NCBI GenBank assembly: GCA_021325515.1
Contig: JAJPHC010000016.1
Location: 1-33,660 of the forward strand
Length of the DNA: 33,660 nt
Direction: 5' to 3'
Origin: Acidobacteriota bacterium
GTDB taxonomy: Bacteria > Acidobacteriota > Thermoanaerobaculia > Gp7-AA8
Shown here in pieces: positions 2,162-33,660 of this stretch. Numbering within the stretch: position 1 is the stretch's first letter; every line of letters starts with the position of its first letter. A program made the position numbers and the translations under genes. The notes beneath the pieces were generated by a model. The model was not told the origin of the DNA. It was given only the letters and a program-made list of their open reading frames with translations, and did not search any database.

Positions 2162-2236
2162 GCCTAACTCACGGTTGCAGCAGACAGCGTGCCGCCGCCT
2201 GCTACTACGCAGCCGCTGAACCGTAGGACGTTGGGC
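2162..2236 (+). repeat. attC site (75 bp)
   Basis: It starts with GCCTAAC (2162-2168) and ends with GTTGGGC (2230-2236), matching RYYYAAC and GTTRRRY. Just inside, ACGGTT-G-CAGC pairs with GCTG-AACCGT; the unpaired G is the extrahelical base that integron integrases use to choose the recombining strand. The variable terminal region is short and contains GCGTGCCGCCGCCTGC. The following cassette would begin at T2231. Confidence 0.85.
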
Positions 2237-27965: not shown

Positions 27966-30900
27966 ATGTCGCTTCGAGCCGTACTCGCAGCAACGATCCT
28001 TTGTGTAGGACAAGCTCTCAGCTTGTCGGGACAAGCTGAGAGCTTGTCCTACACGCAGCCGTGGGATGCTGCGCCTCTCTCTGCCGATCCGAAGGCCATG
28101 CTCGCCGCCGCCGAAAAAGTTCAGGCCGGCGACGCCGATGCGGTCGTCCTCCTCGATGAGATGCACTACTCGTTCGATGCGCAGGGACGCGCGACCGGGA
28201 CCCAGCGCCTCATCTACAAGATCGTGGCGGAGTCGGCCATCGACAACTGGTCGACGATCGCCGCCGGCTGGTCGCCGTGGTATCAGGAGAAGCCGGAGAT
28301 CAACGCCCGCGTGATCGCGCGCGACGCGAGCGTGCACATGCTCGATCAGGCAGCGATCACCGAATCGCCCGCCGGCGACGAGTCGATGGAGATCTTCAGC
28401 GACGCGCGCCTGCTGCGCGCTCCCCTCCCCGGCCTGCAGGACGGCTGCATCGTCGAGGAAGTGATCATCTACAAGGACCGCAATCCGATGTTCGACGCGG
28501 GGACGATGGACCGCTTCTACTTCGGACGCGGCGTCCCGGTGCAGCAGGCGCGGCTGATCATCGACGCACCGCCGGCGCTGCCGCTGCACATCGTGAACAA
28601 GAGCGAGCTCGCAGCGAAGAAGGACGGCGACCGCACCATCTTCGAGAGCGGCCCGATGAAGGCCATCGACGAGTGGGAGTGGAACCTTCCCTACGACGAG
28701 TCGTGGCGTCCCTACGTCGCCTTCGCGACCGGCAAGTCGTGGCAGGACATCGCGCGGCGCTATTCGGAAGTCGTCGACAAGCAGATCGCGAACGCGAAGT
28801 TCCCTGCGGTCGCGAAGAGCTCGAAGCGCAACGAAGTCATCGCGGCGATCCTCGCCGAGATTCAGAAGAACGTCCGCTACGCCGGCGTCGAAGTCGGCGA
28901 CGGCTCGATCATTCCCCGCCCGCCGCAGGAAGTGCTCAATCACAAATACGGCGACTGCAAGGACAAGGCGACGCTGCTCGTCGCGATGCTGCGCGACGCC
29001 GGCATTCCCGCGAGCGTCGTGCTGATCCGCGCCGGATCGGATCTCGACATCAGTCCCGATCTCCCCGGCTTCGGCCAGTTCAACCACGCGATCGTGCACG
29101 TCGACGGCGACAAGCCGATGTGGATCGACCCGACGGACGAATTCGCGCGCGCGGGTGAGCTGCCGGTCCCCGATCAGGGACGCATGGTGCTCATCGCGAA
29201 TCCGAAGACGACCGGGCTCGTGCAGACTCCGGTCTCCGACTCCGCAACGAATCTGATCCGCGAGACGCGCGTCTTCACGCTTTCCGAGGAGGGAAAGGCG
29301 AACGTCACGGAGACGAGCGAGTTTCATGGCGCGAACGATTCCTCGCAGCGGCGCTACTACGTCACGTCCGACCGCAAGTCGTATCGCGAATCGATGGAGC
29401 AGTACGCGACGCAGTACTACGCTGCGAAGGAGCTGAAGAACGTCGAGCCTTCGGATCCGCGCGATCTCTCCAGGCCGTTCACACTGAAGATCGAGATCAG
29501 CGAGGCCTCGCGCGGCACGACATCCGGCGGCGAGGCTGCCGTCGGCATCCTCCCCACCGGCCTCCTCGGCGAGCTTCCGCAGGCGATCCGCTTCTATGAA
29601 GACGAAGACGATCCCAACGCGCCGAAGACCTCGAAGGTCCGGCACAAGCGGACGCACGACTTCGTCTTCATCCCCTACGTGAAGGAGTGGACGTACCGCA
29701 TCGTGCCGCCGCCGGGCTACACGCCGCGCACGCTGCCGCAGAGCGAGACGCTCAAGCTCGGCACGGCAACTCTAACCACCAACTACACCACGGAGAAGGA
29801 AGGCATCGTGGTCGCCGTGCTCCGCTTCGACAGCGGCAAGCGGCGCCTGACGGTTCCCGAGTTCGAGGCGACGCGCAAGGCGCTGAAGGAATTCGGCGAC
29901 CGGAAGCCGATACTCGTCGGCTTCGACGAAACGGGCCAGACGAAGCTGGCGGCGGGCGATGTCGGCGGAGCGCTGGCCGACTTCCGCAAGCTCGTCGCGC
30001 TGCATCCGAAGGAAGCGCGCCATCATGTGGAGATCGCGCGCGCGCTGCTTGCCGGCGGCATGGCGGAGGCGGCGCGTGCCGAAGTGAACAAGGCGATCGA
30101 GATCGAGCCGAACTACGCCGGCGCGTACGCCGCAAAGGGTTGGATCCTGCAGCACGATCTCTTCAGCCGCCGCTTCCGCAAAGGCTTCGATCTGGAGGGC
30201 GCGATCGCCGCCTATCGCAAGGCGAAGGAGCTCGACTCGAAGGAAGTGCAGTACCGCGCCGGTCTCGCCGAGGTCCTGGAGTATGGCGACGATGGGAATC
30301 GGTGGGGGCACAACGCGCACATCGGCGAGGCGATCGATGAGCTCCGCGCGATGATGAAGGAGCTGAAGGAGAATCGCGCCGAGGGCGATCTGCTGCTGGC
30401 GCTGGCGAATGCGGGGCGGTTCCCGGAGCTTCGCGAGGCGGCCGATGCGGCGAAGGATCCCGATGAGCGCGAGCTCGGGCGGATCATCGCGCTCGCCGCA
30501 ACCGACGGCTCCGCGGCCGCGCTGAAAGAAGCCTCCTCCGTCGGGCCCGACCAGCGCCGCAAGCTCCTCGGCAATGCCGCGCAGATTCTGATGAGCATCC
30601 GGCTGTATCCACAGGCCGCCGATCTCTTCGAGCAGGCCTCGCAGGGCGGCACGAACGCGACGCAGATCGCGCCGCTCATCGAGCTGCTGCGCAAGACGAA
30701 GAAGGCCGAGACGCTCACCCTCTCCGACGCCGATCCGAAGGATGTGCTCAAGCGCGTGCTCATCACGCTGCTCGCGGAGAACGCCGACGAGAAGGCGATG
30801 TCGAAGTTCATCACCGCCGATCAGGCGAAGCTCGAGGAAGATGCGAAGAAGAATGCGGATGACGAAGAGCTCGATGCGACGCCCGATCGGACGATCGCTT

Positions 30901-32084
30901 CCGTGCGCTACGCGATGATGGATGACGCGCTGCCTCCGCGCGTCGTCGCCGATCTCGCTCTCGCCTCGGTGCAGTTCCAGCAGGATGGCGACGAGAAGAG
31001 CGGCTATCGCGTGCGGATGCGCCAGCAGGCCGGGCTTTCCGACGGCAACAAGAATGTGCCGGCCGAGGCGTTCTTCTTCGTGAAGGAGAATGGGAAGTAT
31101 CTGATCAGCGCGGTGCTGCACGAGCCGGAGATGATCGGCTGGAGCGCATTGCGTTTCGTCGAGGCGGGCGATGTCGAGAGTGCGCGGCGCTGGCTGAACT
31201 GGGCGCGCGAGGAGATCACGACCGGCGGCGGCGATGATCCGCTCGACACCTCGCCGTTCGCGACGCTCTGGGCGAAGGGAAAGCAGAATGCGACGGCGGA
31301 TGAAGTGCGCGTGGCGGCGGCGTCGCTGATGTTGCGCAAGCCGTACGCGGAGAAGGCGCTGCCGATTCTCGAGGCGGCAAGGGAGAAGGCGACGTCGGAC
31401 GATCAGCGGCTGCACATCGACCTGGCGCTCTCGGCGATCGCGTCGTTCGGGCACGAATGGAGCGAGCTGCAGGCGATCTCCGAGCGACTGCTCAAGGCCG
31501 TGCCCGATTCGGCGTCGGCGTTCAACATGCGTGCGACGGCGCTGACGGAAGGGGATCATTTCGACGAGGCGGAGAAATTCGCGAAGGCGCGTCTCGACAA
31601 GCTGCCGAAGGACGAGGATGCGATTCGCGCGCTGGGGCGTGTGGCGATGGCGCGCGGGCGTTATGACGAGTGCGACAAGTATTACCGCCAGGTGATCGAC
31701 GAGTTGCAGCCGAGCTCCGTCGACTACAACAACGCCGCGTGGAACATTCTCTTCATCGGAAAGGATCTCGATCGCGCAATCGGCTATGCGCGCCAGGCAT
31801 CATCGCGGGGCGGCGCGTCGTCGCTGCACACGCTGGCCGCCTTGTATGCGGAGAGCGGCAAGAGCCTGGAGGCGAGGGAAGCGCTGCTGAAGTCGATGGA
31901 CGACGCCGGGCGTGACGATCCCGCGAGCCACGACTGGTATGTGCTGGCGAGAATCGCGGAGAACTACGGAGCGACCGACGCAGCCCTCGCCGCCTACGCA
32001 AGGGTGAAGAAGCCGTCGCATCCGTCGAGCGACGACACGTATGTGCTGGCGCAGAGGCGCCTGGCAGCGATCGGGAAGAAATGA
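27966..32084 (+). CDS. DUF3857/transglutaminase-like/TPR exported protein
   Basis: The 1,372-residue product has a Shine-Dalgarno (AGGAG) 6 bases before ATG. The leader MSLRAVLAATIL continues into CVGQALSLSGQAESLSYT, which is encoded by a perfect palindrome. A DUF3857 beta-sandwich (about 60-250) comes next. The transglutaminase-like domain (about 285-400) has the Cys-His-Asp triad: Cys331 in KYGDCKDKATLL, His374 in FNHAIVHV and Asp388 in MWIDPTDE. A second beta domain (about 410-640) follows. TPR-type helices lie at about 660-760 (LHPKEARHHVEIARALL, IEPNYAGAYAAKGWIL), with further helical repeats to the end (FNMRATALTEGDHFDEAEKF). Such proteins are usually exported and are thought to process or bind peptides or amides in the envelope; the substrate is unknown. 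They are typical of Acidobacteriota and Bacteroidota. Confidence 0.92.
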   Translation: MSLRAVLAATILCVGQALSLSGQAESLSYTQPWDAAPLSADPKAMLAAAEKVQAGDADAVVLLDEMHYSFDAQGRATGTQRLIYKIVAESAIDNWSTIAAGWSPWYQEKPEINARVIARDASVHMLDQAAITESPAGDESMEIFSDARLLRAPLPGLQDGCIVEEVIIYKDRNPMFDAGTMDRFYFGRGVPVQQARLIIDAPPALPLHIVNKSELAAKKDGDRTIFESGPMKAIDEWEWNLPYDESWRPYVAFATGKSWQDIARRYSEVVDKQIANAKFPAVAKSSKRNEVIAAILAEIQKNVRYAGVEVGDGSIIPRPPQEVLNHKYGDCKDKATLLVAMLRDAGIPASVVLIRAGSDLDISPDLPGFGQFNHAIVHVDGDKPMWIDPTDEFARAGELPVPDQGRMVLIANPKTTGLVQTPVSDSATNLIRETRVFTLSEEGKANVTETSEFHGANDSSQRRYYVTSDRKSYRESMEQYATQYYAAKELKNVEPSDPRDLSRPFTLKIEISEASRGTTSGGEAAVGILPTGLLGELPQAIRFYEDEDDPNAPKTSKVRHKRTHDFVFIPYVKEWTYRIVPPPGYTPRTLPQSETLKLGTATLTTNYTTEKEGIVVAVLRFDSGKRRLTVPEFEATRKALKEFGDRKPILVGFDETGQTKLAAGDVGGALADFRKLVALHPKEARHHVEIARALLAGGMAEAARAEVNKAIEIEPNYAGAYAAKGWILQHDLFSRRFRKGFDLEGAIAAYRKAKELDSKEVQYRAGLAEVLEYGDDGNRWGHNAHIGEAIDELRAMMKELKENRAEGDLLLALANAGRFPELREAADAAKDPDERELGRIIALAATDGSAAALKEASSVGPDQRRKLLGNAAQILMSIRLYPQAADLFEQASQGGTNATQIAPLIELLRKTKKAETLTLSDADPKDVLKRVLITLLAENADEKAMSKFITADQAKLEEDAKKNADDEELDATPDRTIASVRYAMMDDALPPRVVADLALASVQFQQDGDEKSGYRVRMRQQAGLSDGNKNVPAEAFFFVKENGKYLISAVLHEPEMIGWSALRFVEAGDVESARRWLNWAREEITTGGGDDPLDTSPFATLWAKGKQNATADEVRVAAASLMLRKPYAEKALPILEAAREKATSDDQRLHIDLALSAIASFGHEWSELQAISERLLKAVPDSASAFNMRATALTEGDHFDEAEKFAKARLDKLPKDEDAIRALGRVAMARGRYDECDKYYRQVIDELQPSSVDYNNAAWNILFIGKDLDRAIGYARQASSRGGASSLHTLAALYAESGKSLEAREALLKSMDDAGRDDPASHDWYVLARIAENYGATDAALAAYARVKKPSHPSSDDTYVLAQRRLAAIGKK
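28003..28054. repeat. 52-bp perfect palindrome inside a coding sequence
   Basis: Arms of 25 bases (28003-28027 and 28030-28054) are perfectly complementary around a 2-base loop. The ends are GTGTAGGACA and TGTCCTACAC, identical to those of the element at 22205-22323. It lies 37 bases into the DUF3857 gene and encodes VGQALSLSGQAESLSYT. The frame stays open through the insertion. A 25-base relic of the right arm is at 6733-6757. Confidence 0.93.
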
Positions 32085-32115
32085 CTGGCAGGATGTGGTC
32101 CCGATTCAGGGTAGA

Positions 32116-32151
32116 TATCTACCCGTAGATGTAGATATCTACGGGTAGATA
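32116..32151. repeat. 15-bp perfect inverted repeat before the right cassette array
   Basis: Arms TATCTACCCGTAGAT (32116-32130) and ATCTACGGGTAGATA (32137-32151) flank a 6-base loop, GTAGAT. Each arm and the loop repeat the hexamer GTAGAT/ATCTAC, and two more ATCTAC copies follow by 32162. It is much richer in A+T than its surroundings. It may be a terminator for the TPR gene, 31 bases after the stop, or a protein-binding site. There is no T-run. Confidence 0.7.
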
Positions 32152-32194
32152 CAAGCATCTACCTGTGGATAGAATCGAATCAGGTTAGGAAAAC

Positions 32195-32201
32195 GTTAGG
32201 C
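32195..32201 (+). other. First core site (GTTAGGC) of the right-hand cassette array
   Basis: GTTAGGC fits GTTRRRY. The bases after the recombination point (TTAGGCGCC) are the exact complement of GGCGCCTAA at 32551-32559, the left end of the attC after the next gene, which marks 32196 as the 5' edge of that cassette. No attC stem precedes this core. The upstream GGTTAGGAAAAC gives a direct repeat of GTTAGG. It could be an attI-like site or a chance insertion point; no integrase gene is in the window. Confidence 0.6.
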
Positions 32202-32216
32202 GCCGTAGCTACCACC

Positions 32217-32540
32217 ATGTTCTGCCCAAAGTGTGGCGATGTACTCCAACTCTCGTCGAGGGGCGAACTCGCTTGTCTCCGAGGCAACATGGGCTTGTCA
32301 AAGCAAATGGAGAAGGCGCTTACTGAGTGTTTCGTTGAGAACACTCGAATGCCTCGCGAACCAGAGGCCGCGCCAGCCCGCCACGGTGGCGGATGGGGAG
32401 GAAAATGGTTTTGCCCTGGGTGTGGTATTCAAGCCGTTGCGAATGGCCCGTGGGACGTGCGATGCCCGCGTTGCACAAAGAGCCTGGACGAGTTTCTCTA
32501 TAGGCTGATCGAGTTTCATCCGCACGCTCCGAACGCGTAG
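32217..32540 (+). CDS. Zinc-ribbon protein (cassette gene)
   Basis: The 107-residue product has one CPKCG pair near the N-terminus (MFCPKCGDVLQLSSRGELAC) with a single further Cys. A second, complete ribbon (WFCPGCG ... VRCPRC) lies at about residues 64-85. The middle segment GNMGLSKQMEKAL is helical. I recall similar short two-ribbon proteins as cassette genes in other integrons, but their function is unknown. It starts 21 bases after the cassette edge and ends 13 bases before attC. There is no Shine-Dalgarno sequence. Confidence 0.8.
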   Translation: MFCPKCGDVLQLSSRGELACLRGNMGLSKQMEKALTECFVENTRMPREPEAAPARHGGGWGGKWFCPGCGIQAVANGPWDVRCPRCTKSLDEFLYRLIEFHPHAPNA

Positions 32541-32553
32541 CCTGCGAATCGGC

Positions 32554-32671
32554 GCCTAACTCGCGGCTGCAGCGGATGCCGTGCCGTTCGTTGCCACTTT
32601 GCATCCAAGCGCGAACTTTCGCTATTCTGCCGTGTGTGGCACGGCACCGCTGAGCCGCAACAACGTTAGAC
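32554..32671 (+). repeat. attC site (118 bp)
   Basis: It begins with GCCTAAC (32554-32560) and ends with GTTAGAC (32665-32671). Inside, GCGGCT-G-CAGCGG pairs with CCGCTG-AGCCGC, leaving one unpaired G (32567 region). Then GCCGTGCC pairs with GGCACGGC, and a loop of about 45 bases follows. The layout is that of a folded single-stranded attC hairpin. Confidence 0.92.
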
Positions 32672-32698
32672 GCCCGAAGCTAACGACGGGGACGAGTC

Positions 32699-33001
32699 AT
32701 GAACCCAGACATCGAGTCACACGAGTGGCTGGCCGGAATGTACCGTGACGGATACTTCCCGGATCGCCAGGTCGATAAGGTCAAGACCGTCCTGCTGCAG
32801 TTGTGCGGCGACATTGAAACGCAGAAACCGCAAACCGACGCGGCAGCGGCCCGAGAGATTGGTGACGCACCCAAGCAGAGACACCGCAAGTGGCACGCGG
32901 CGTCTAACTCGGCACTGCAGCGGATGCCGTGCCGTTCGTCGCCGCCTTTCATTCGAGAGCTCGCGTCAGGTATTCTGCCGTGTGAGGCACGGCACCGCTG
33001 A
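32699..33001 (+). pseudogene. Truncated DUF5713-like cassette gene
   Basis: The first about 50 residues (MNPDIESHEWLAGMYRDGYF, then PDRQVDKVKTVLLQLCGDIE, then TQKP) strongly resemble the N-terminal half of DUF5713, a family of about 110 residues with a conserved MYxDxYFPxxxVDKxK block. The matching C-terminal half is missing. After residue about 52 the frame becomes unrelated and runs through the following attC (32902-33019) to a stop at 33001. The gene portion inside the cassette is thus only about 200 bases. A deletion inside the cassette is the simplest cause. GGGGACGAG precedes the ATG as a possible ribosome binding site. Confidence 0.7.
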
Positions 33002-33019
33002 GTGCCAAAGCCGTTAGGC
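32902..33019 (+). repeat. attC site (118 bp)
   Basis: It begins with GTCTAAC (32902-32908) and ends with GTTAGGC (33013-33019). GGCACT-G-CAGCGG pairs with CCGCTG-AGTGCC, again leaving a single unpaired G. The next block (GCCGTGCC/GGCACGGC) is identical to that of the site at 32554, and both are 118 bases long. The outer stems differ between the two sites on both arms, so pairing is kept by matched changes. Confidence 0.93.
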
Positions 33020-33029
33020 GTACGAGAGA

Positions 33030-33542
33030 ATGGGTCCGACGGTAGGAATCCTGATCCGAGAGACCGCGTCAGCCATGCAGGATTTTCTGGGAGCACTTAC
33101 GAAAGCTCTCGATCCGGGCGCGGTTAACGGGGAGGACATTCGCGTCGCGTCGACCAGATCAATCGGGGGAGTGACCGATTCTCAGGAAGGTCGCTCGTTC
33201 AGCATTTCCTTCGCCGATATTCAGTCTGCGTATGAGGAAACGGAGCTACAGGCGATCGAATCGGCCTTCGGGTTCAGGCCCGAGGCTGAAATACAAGTCT
33301 GCGCATCCAGCAACCGAGACATCGATCACAGAATGCTCGGGGAGATTGCCTCCCACATGGCGCGAGAACTGGACGCGCTCGTCAATTTTAGCGGTCACCT
33401 CGGTGTCTTCGGATCGGGAGCTGGGAGGTTGGCAGAAATCTCCTACGTCATCGATCCGACGCGAACCGGTCTTTACCAAGTCGGCGATCTGGCCTTTATG
33501 CAGGCGTGGCTGAGCGATCCGACATTCCATATGGTCAAGTAA
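33030..33542 (+). CDS. DUF6368-like protein (cassette gene)
   Basis: The 170-residue product begins with MGPTVGILI and ends with DLAFMQAWLSDPTFHMVK. It has a central block (VCASSNRDIDHRMLGEIASHMARELDALVNFSG, given here in outline) of the pattern I associate with DUF6368; the match is from memory. The fold is mixed alpha/beta with no signal peptide. Function is unknown; related proteins are sometimes near polymorphic toxin or immunity genes, so an immunity role is possible but unproven. It starts 11 bases after the attC core with GAGAGA upstream, and its stop is 9 bases before the next GCCTAAC. Confidence 0.75.
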   Translation: MGPTVGILIRETASAMQDFLGALTKALDPGAVNGEDIRVASTRSIGGVTDSQEGRSFSISFADIQSAYEETELQAIESAFGFRPEAEIQVCASSNRDIDHRMLGEIASHMARELDALVNFSGHLGVFGSGAGRLAEISYVIDPTRTGLYQVGDLAFMQAWLSDPTFHMVK

Positions 33543-33551
33543 CAAACCGAC

Positions 33552-33660
33552 GCCTAACTCTCCGCTACCTTTAGGCACTCGTCAATAGAAAATCCTTATT
33601 GAGGTGTTCGACGCGAGTCGAAAGCTCCGCTTTCGACTCATAGGCGCAGCTCCGCCGGAG
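33552..33660 (+). other. Start of a further attC-like site or array end, cut by the window
   Basis: GCCTAAC (33552-33558) follows the DUF6368-like gene. With the two bases before it, it is complementary to that cassette's own 5' edge over 9 bases, so it should be the left end of its attC. The bases after it (TCTCCGCTACC) do not match the two other attC sites, and no right half is seen before 33660. No gene is visible here. Confidence 0.55.
33615..33639. repeat. 10-bp perfect inverted repeat
   Basis: GAGTCGAAAG (33615-33624) and CTTTCGACTC (33630-33639) flank CTCCG. It may be part of the terminal hairpin of the unfinished attC or a separate palindrome; the window ends before this can be decided. 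Confidence 0.6.

Follow-up and report, generated by a model that had tools for sequence, protein, structure and literature searches.

Gene cassettes away from the integrase gene in an Acidobacteriota genome begin at a repeated attI-like unit

The cassette array and its attC sites

The window (the whole stretch of DNA that was analysed, 33,660 nucleotides) is the entire contig C24 of genome G000, a draft Acidobacteriota assembly of 63 contigs. Positions 32195 to 33660 contain an array of three genuine integron gene cassettes, which read from left to right and have their GTT starts at 32195, 32665 and 33013. It opens with an 82-bp unit (32113-32194) that ends at the GTT crossover and lies behind a chromosomal gene. 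The features are as follows.

2162..2236, + strand: attC site of another array, near its right end; 75 nt, preceded by ORF 1295-2149
27966..32084, + strand: upstream chromosomal gene for a DUF3857/transglutaminase/TPR protein of 1372 aa; 28 bp from its stop codon to the platform unit
32113..32170, + strand: leader, with three palindromes ATCTACnnGTAGAT (14 bp), the third with one change
32117-32130, 32137-32150 and 32157-32170, + strand: leader palindromes, period 20 bp
32171..32201, + strand: attI-like core, AATCAGGTTAGGAAAAC running into GTTAGGC (motif 32178-32201); crossover at GTT 32195-32197
32196..32665, + strand: cassette 1, with ORF 32217-32540 (107 aa, Cys-rich)
32554..32671, + strand: attC 1, 118 nt, the final six bases being part of the next cassette
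32666..33013, + strand: cassette 2, with ORF 32699-33001
32902..33019, + strand: attC 2, 118 nt
33014..33565, + strand: cassette 3, incomplete, with ORF 33030-33542 (DUF6368 match)
33552..33565, + strand: left arm of attC 3, interrupted after CTCTCCGC
33566..33660, + strand: end of an insertion sequence in attC 3; the same 95 bp stand at the end of C53

The first-pass annotation had claimed that each cassette possesses a left end complementary to the left end of its own attC, and direct reading bears this out in all three cases: GTTAGGCGCC (32195-32204) with GGCGCCTAAC (32551-32560) for cassette 1, GTTAGACGCC (32665-32674) with GGCGTCTAAC (32899-32908) for cassette 2, and GTTAGGCGT (33013-33021) with ACGCCTAAC (33550-33558) for cassette 3. 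The two complete attC sites, 32554-32671 and 32902-33019, exhibit the RYYYAAC ... GTTRRRY ends and are of equal length, as had been noted. The array is real but its start had been set too far to the right, the true start being 32113; likewise all three consecutive cassettes are present but the third attC is interrupted from 33566 by the insertion-sequence end.

The ORF of cassette 1 gave zinc-ribbon-like Pfam matches, every one of them under its cut-off. The cassette 2 ORF holds the first half of a DUF5713 protein and then runs into attC 2, being probably truncated, and the DUF6368 match of cassette 3 spans the whole profile. Transcription of the cassettes may come by read-through from the upstream gene, which points the same way. 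No terminator-like site was found in 31900-33660, a search in which the leader was considered as a terminator.

Two complete attC sites and one interrupted site, with no neighbouring intI, make the array a CALIN, that is, a cluster of at least two attC sites away from the integrase of the genome. No intI was revealed in the window by tblastn; the contig stops at 33660 and the far side of the array lies beyond it.

The opposite end of the window also carries array DNA (attC 2162-2236). Positions 1-2700 are the right end of a second cassette array with ORFs 294-1196 and 1295-2149, and there is a weak 21-nt attC-like remnant at 186-206 (model E 0.15), a further end-like remnant near 2412 and, as judged by eye, a small antitoxin-like ORF (2459-2665) with a toxin-like frame behind it.

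Folded as single strands of DNA, attC 1 and attC 2 reach z scores of -3.8 and -4.6 relative to shuffles on the bottom strand and of -3.8 and -4.2 on the top strand; the 75-nt site folds weakly (z -1.3), and 21 of 200 shuffles equal it. Sixteen sites of G000 (attC 1, attC 2 and 14 others) were aligned, giving a single hairpin with 27 pairs. Changes on both arms of the stems, which had been described for the two complete sites, are found at 16 of these pairs, each in at least one of the 16 sites. Under the fixed structure 95.8% of cells pair, a value favoured by design since the structure was derived from that alignment, as against 79.4% with shuffled partners and 31-38% with the partner slid by 1-3 columns. 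What had been read as one unpaired G at the same place is actually two unpaired bases in the left arm. The sites show the imperfect hairpin of conserved structure, with unpaired bases in one arm, by which attC sites are recognised.

Nine stretches of G000 were scanned with a covariance model built from these 16 sites (not the IntegronFinder model), which gave 30 sites at E ≤ 1.2e-10; 16 are the training sites and 14 lie outside the training set. The lack of attC model matches that would have told against the first-pass reading is thus not seen. None of the 30 is on the C31 stretch. Left out of this number are six rows in which sites already counted were read on the other strand, and ten rows at E 0.011 to 0.66. 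Matches at E ≤ 0.01 occur in 17 of the 18 genomes of the family sample, including G000, the sole representative of its genus. The pattern GCCTAACN{50,80}GTTAG gave no match in G000 because the attC sites here are longer.

Several peculiarities were observed in the other arrays. Two attC-like sites (L043:3439-3497, 59 nt, and L045:5081-5118, 38 nt; model E 0.011 and 0.03) have no inner stem-loop and are possibly hairpin deletions that freeze cassettes. In L045, L042 and L046 a similar stretch, about AACCGGCAAGTGGC, is seen by eye directly 5′ of attC in several cassettes, which suggests related cassette ends. On oriented contig C6 (183-4371; L044) two attC sites lie over 4 kb apart. The interval holds three large ORFs (357, 529 and 457 aa) and far exceeds the other cassettes in length.

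The insertion sequence in attC 3 is represented in the assembly by its ends. A second common sequence is found at the starts of C2 and C16 and at the ends of C6 and C54, and both ends (95-97 bp and 79-103 bp) join attC at GC^TGCA in the left arm. All six junctions (two left, four right) fall at this one place, a fixed target, and represent at least four insertions. Searches with these ends revealed in the assembly neither the body of the element nor a transposase, which in IS1111 elements is of the DEDD type. Related inverted stretches, TACCTTTAGG and TACTCTTAGG, are visible by eye at the two ends, and an IS1111-type element is likely but unproven. The IS1111-family elements ISKpn4 and ISPst6 target attC (PMC11187229); here too insertion into attC is at a single fixed place, with subterminal inverted repeats (by eye). 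It differs in lying inside the left arm (GC^TGCA), whereas those elements are described in the relevant part of that paper as inserting at one end of attC.

The integrase gene and the repeated attI-like unit

The array had been described as lacking a visible integrase, which is true of the window contig but not of the genome. A search of G000 for intI gave a full match on C31 (17384-18361, 326 aa, no stop), which covers the TIGR02249 profile from the first to the last position with 471 bits against a cut-off of 265. The gene is transcribed towards an attI-like site and a cassette. Integron integrases at E ≤ 1e-60 are present in 11 of the 18 family genomes, G000 included. In a scan of named genomes, the 80 relatives retained are 52-64% identical to the C31 protein and are scattered over phyla (cyanobacteria, Chloroflexota, Holophagaceae, proteobacteria and others). 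The main hint of Acidobacteriota in the analysis itself is a protein of genome G001, a relative, which matches TIGR03436 over its cut-off. The intI on C165 of genome G008 (L248:4311-5275) appears as two separate tblastn segments and may be frameshifted. Contig C63 of G000 (7118 bp; L003, L006, L007, L008) carries several adjacent tyrosine recombinase frames of 312-343 aa, which we take to be reminiscent of recombinase-trio elements.

The unit at 32113-32194, which the first-pass annotation missed, is not confined to the window. It consists of three copies of ATCTACnnGTAGAT, some of them changed, at a 20-bp spacing, followed by 24-25 bp with the attI-like core and by GTT. Four copies exist in G000 (C24, the window; C53; C14; C26) and one each in G001 (C95) and G013 (C50), which represent two other genera of the family. 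These are the six occurrences of the leader, at no more than 3 mismatches, among 148 genomes of the class (control, 0). The exact palindrome ATCTACNNGTAGAT was found in 26 of 254 partly overlapping loci, all 26 of which contain the unit, with two matches each. Viral contigs searched for exact matches to a leader-like pattern gave none. A promoter-like match within the window copy (32146-32175, 9/12) was discarded as being at the chance level (0.6 expected).

All six units run into GTTRRRY, and the distance from unit start to GTT is 82, 82, 82, 83, 83 and 83 bp. The leaders are identical at 39-51 of 55 positions, and the homology ends abruptly at the left end of the unit, the flanking DNA being unrelated: the 60 bp upstream are identical at 13-24 positions, which is near chance. 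Behind the crossover 7-18 of 45 positions are identical in all 15 pairs of units, C14 and C26, which have a cassette in common, being one base out of register in this comparison. In every case the upstream gene is co-directional with the unit, and the gap from its stop codon is 28 bp on C24 and C53, 14 bp on C14 and 2 bp on C26; in the other genera there is a 2-bp overlap (G013) and a gap of 150 bp (G001). An attC site is seen behind four of the six units (window, C53, G001, G013), the first one in G001 lying about 1.7 kb behind the unit and having no complementarity to the cassette start. The contigs of the remaining two, C14 and C26, end before any attC could appear. No empty unit was found among the copies, so the unit could be a leftover of array formation and not an entry point.

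The three equally spaced operators suggest a DNA-binding protein, and the palindromes may bind a regulator or an accessory protein. A 111-aa protein (L229:192-527 and L231:835-1233, both minus strand) adjoins the unit on C26 of G000 and on C50 of G013. It gave no Pfam match; relatives adjoin intI in three loci of Chloroflexota-type records (loci noted: L116, L061, L100, L171), and a truncated relative is located near an array edge on C32 of G001. It may be an integron-associated gene.

The core links the units to the integrase gene. G000 has five matches to the motif AATCAGSTTAGGANNNNGTTRRRC, of which four are exact and the fifth differs at one position; the reversed control gave 0. They lie beside intI on C31, in a decayed integron on C3, at the window array, on C53 and on C14. 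Each match stands directly 5′ of a GTTRRRY cassette start, and the crossover core, AATCAG[CG]TTAGGA, is that of the intI side in all five. In the C26 unit the core differs (TTAATACAGA before GTT); the other three G000 units have theirs in common with the intI-side attI. Elsewhere in the family (17 genomes) the motif gave eight matches, all with 3 mismatches, against seven for the reversed control; these are mostly chance and say little. Two of them, in G010 (C120 and C179), include GTTAGGC, and that on C120 sits in sequence resembling the attI of G000 (74 bp at 76%, 54 bp at 78%).

A second link is found beyond the crossover. From that point C31 and C26 agree at 107 of 107 bases, as far as either contig goes, and over 106 bases C14 shows 98% identity to them. 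This identity starts at the crossover; upstream of it stand the intI-side attI on C31 and the platform unit on C14 and C26. Most simply, a single cassette would have been put by the integrase into linked as well as unlinked attI sites. We infer arrays on C14, C26 and C31 from the common first cassette and its GTTRRRY start. All three contigs end inside this cassette and its attC was not found; a search for its far end gave only the cassette's own start, in the C26 loci, and one match in L058, from another genome. The common stretch could in principle be an insertion sequence starting at GTTGAAC.

The origin of the arrays

CALINs are usually regarded as degraded integrons or as off-target insertions. 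We think it likely that in G000 one integrase serves several stand-alone attI platforms, acting on them in trans. What is observed in support of this best reading comprises the cassettes, the attC sites, the intI gene, the repeated unit with its fixed 82-83 bp to GTTRRRY, and the common cassette-like end at three attI-like sites. The window array would be the left part of a cassette array distant from the integrase gene, in which circular cassettes were inserted into the stand-alone attI-like site at 32113-32194 next to a chromosomal gene. The inserting enzyme would be the C31 integrase or a relative, able to act on integrase-free units.

The fuller picture, which we rate as slightly less likely than not, is of a distributed integron. 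Its stand-alone attI of about 83 bp, with three spaced palindromic operators and an IntI core, would have been copied around the chromosome without the integrase. Each copy would have built an array following a host gene of its own; one integrase would serve them all, and one DNA-binding protein would possibly control them.

The best-surviving alternative, though we consider it unlikely, is that each array lost its own intI and the leader is an old attI. Degraded integrons do occur in the family. On C3 of G000, 58 bp of intI (81%) survive, as do 220 bp that are 88% identical to the attI region of C31, and C88 of G008 has an attI site where intI is reduced to 52 aa. No convincing remnant of intI stands at the six leader units. 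Nothing was found by tblastn at E ≤ 1, a search which misses the 58-bp remnant on C3 as well and might overlook others that are very short or decayed. When the C31 intI gene was the query, blastn recovered the C3 remnant (E 4e-8, the positive control); in the 1500 bp upstream of the six units it gave a 42-bp match on C53 (E 0.01), which is about 645 bp off and within a gene, the other matches (C53, C14, C26, G001, G013) being at E 0.41 only. In five of the six cases no more than 28 bp separate the unit from the stop codon of a gene unrelated to the others, in the sixth 150 bp, and the sharp break in homology at the left end of the unit also speaks against degradation. Six independent losses with a common end point are improbable; a single loss followed by copying is possible. 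A parallel to the stand-alone platforms is found in another genus, in genome G007. Its contig C42 carries, before five attC sites, a 210-bp copy (81%) of the attI region beside its own intI; tblastn at E ≤ 1 revealed no intI on this contig, and blastn with the intI of that genome gave nothing beyond the copied stretch (best other match 18 bp, E 0.065). Together with C88 of G008, this indicates that the family has more than one route to an attI site without an intact intI.

Insertion of cassettes into ordinary secondary (attG) sites, with later cassettes following, is quite improbable here. Published passages describe IntI using such sites and list this among the proposed CALIN origins (PMC8618304, PMC12444791), but random sites would not have in common a 55-bp leader, three spaced palindromes and a fixed distance to the cassette start, nor would the exact palindrome be confined to unit-containing loci, as it is among the 254 loci.

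More improbable still is that the arrays are one long array split by the assembly, which would make their number an artefact. In its favour, contigs of the draft do break in the attC sites and in the insertion sequence, both of which are repeats; array DNA stands at the ends of C24 (both), C3, C53, C34, C2, C16, C6 and C54. Against a single array, six left edges (C31, at the attI beside intI, C3, C24, C53, C14 and C26) and six right edges (the C24 start, C34, C2, C16, C6 and C54) adjoin non-cassette DNA, some of them on large contigs (316, 173 and 151 kb); where exactly the arrays stop on the right was judged by eye, and further decayed sites may lie beyond. Contig C24 possesses array DNA at both ends with about 30 kb of chromosome between, and the C42 array of G007 lies in the interior of a single 93-kb contig. 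That the attC-like sites are ordinary repeats rather than parts of cassettes can be dismissed: no point in its support was found, and the covariation, the cassette-end complementarity, intI and the matches in nearly all genomes of the family speak against it.

The explanation by site-specific cassette recombination given at first pass is accordingly supported. Should one integrase serve stand-alone attI platforms, such dedicated integrase-free sites would be a further origin of CALINs, and a genome could operate several arrays, each following a host gene of its own, with a single integrase. The six aligned copies of the unit are a ready substrate for tests.

Comparison with known systems

The rarity of cassettes in such a background had also been overstated as "much less described", since Acidobacteriota integrons are in print (PMC8352920, PMC8618304). 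Arrays of attC sites away from intI are already known as CALINs, and one survey counts 2961 of them against 2760 complete integrons, adding in the same account that attI sites outside class 1 are poorly described (PMC9024848). A search of open-access full texts gave no description of repeated integrase-free attI platforms; this is a weak sign of novelty.

In the chromosomal integron of Treponema, intI is transcribed towards attI (PMC3607928). The intI on C31 likewise runs towards its attI-like site and cassette; the differences are that G000 belongs to another bacterial group and has several further attI-like sites. The attG sites described in other papers are, in the passages concerned, divergent and spread over many loci. 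Cassettes inserted at attG, like those of the window, stand in the chromosome away from intI, but the sites of G000 have a repeated leader and an attI-like core.

The closest likeness is with CALINs. The proposed origins of these, as far as one treatment lists them, are off-target insertion, loss of intI and rearrangement (PMC8618304); Xanthomonas has them at seven loci that are distant from intI, and CALINs can reportedly be mobilised in trans (PMC12444791). The window array agrees with them in its attC-bounded cassettes, the lack of an adjacent intI and the presence of intI elsewhere in the genome. Unlike CALINs as described in those passages, the arrays of G000 start at copies of one attI-like unit of 82-83 bp.
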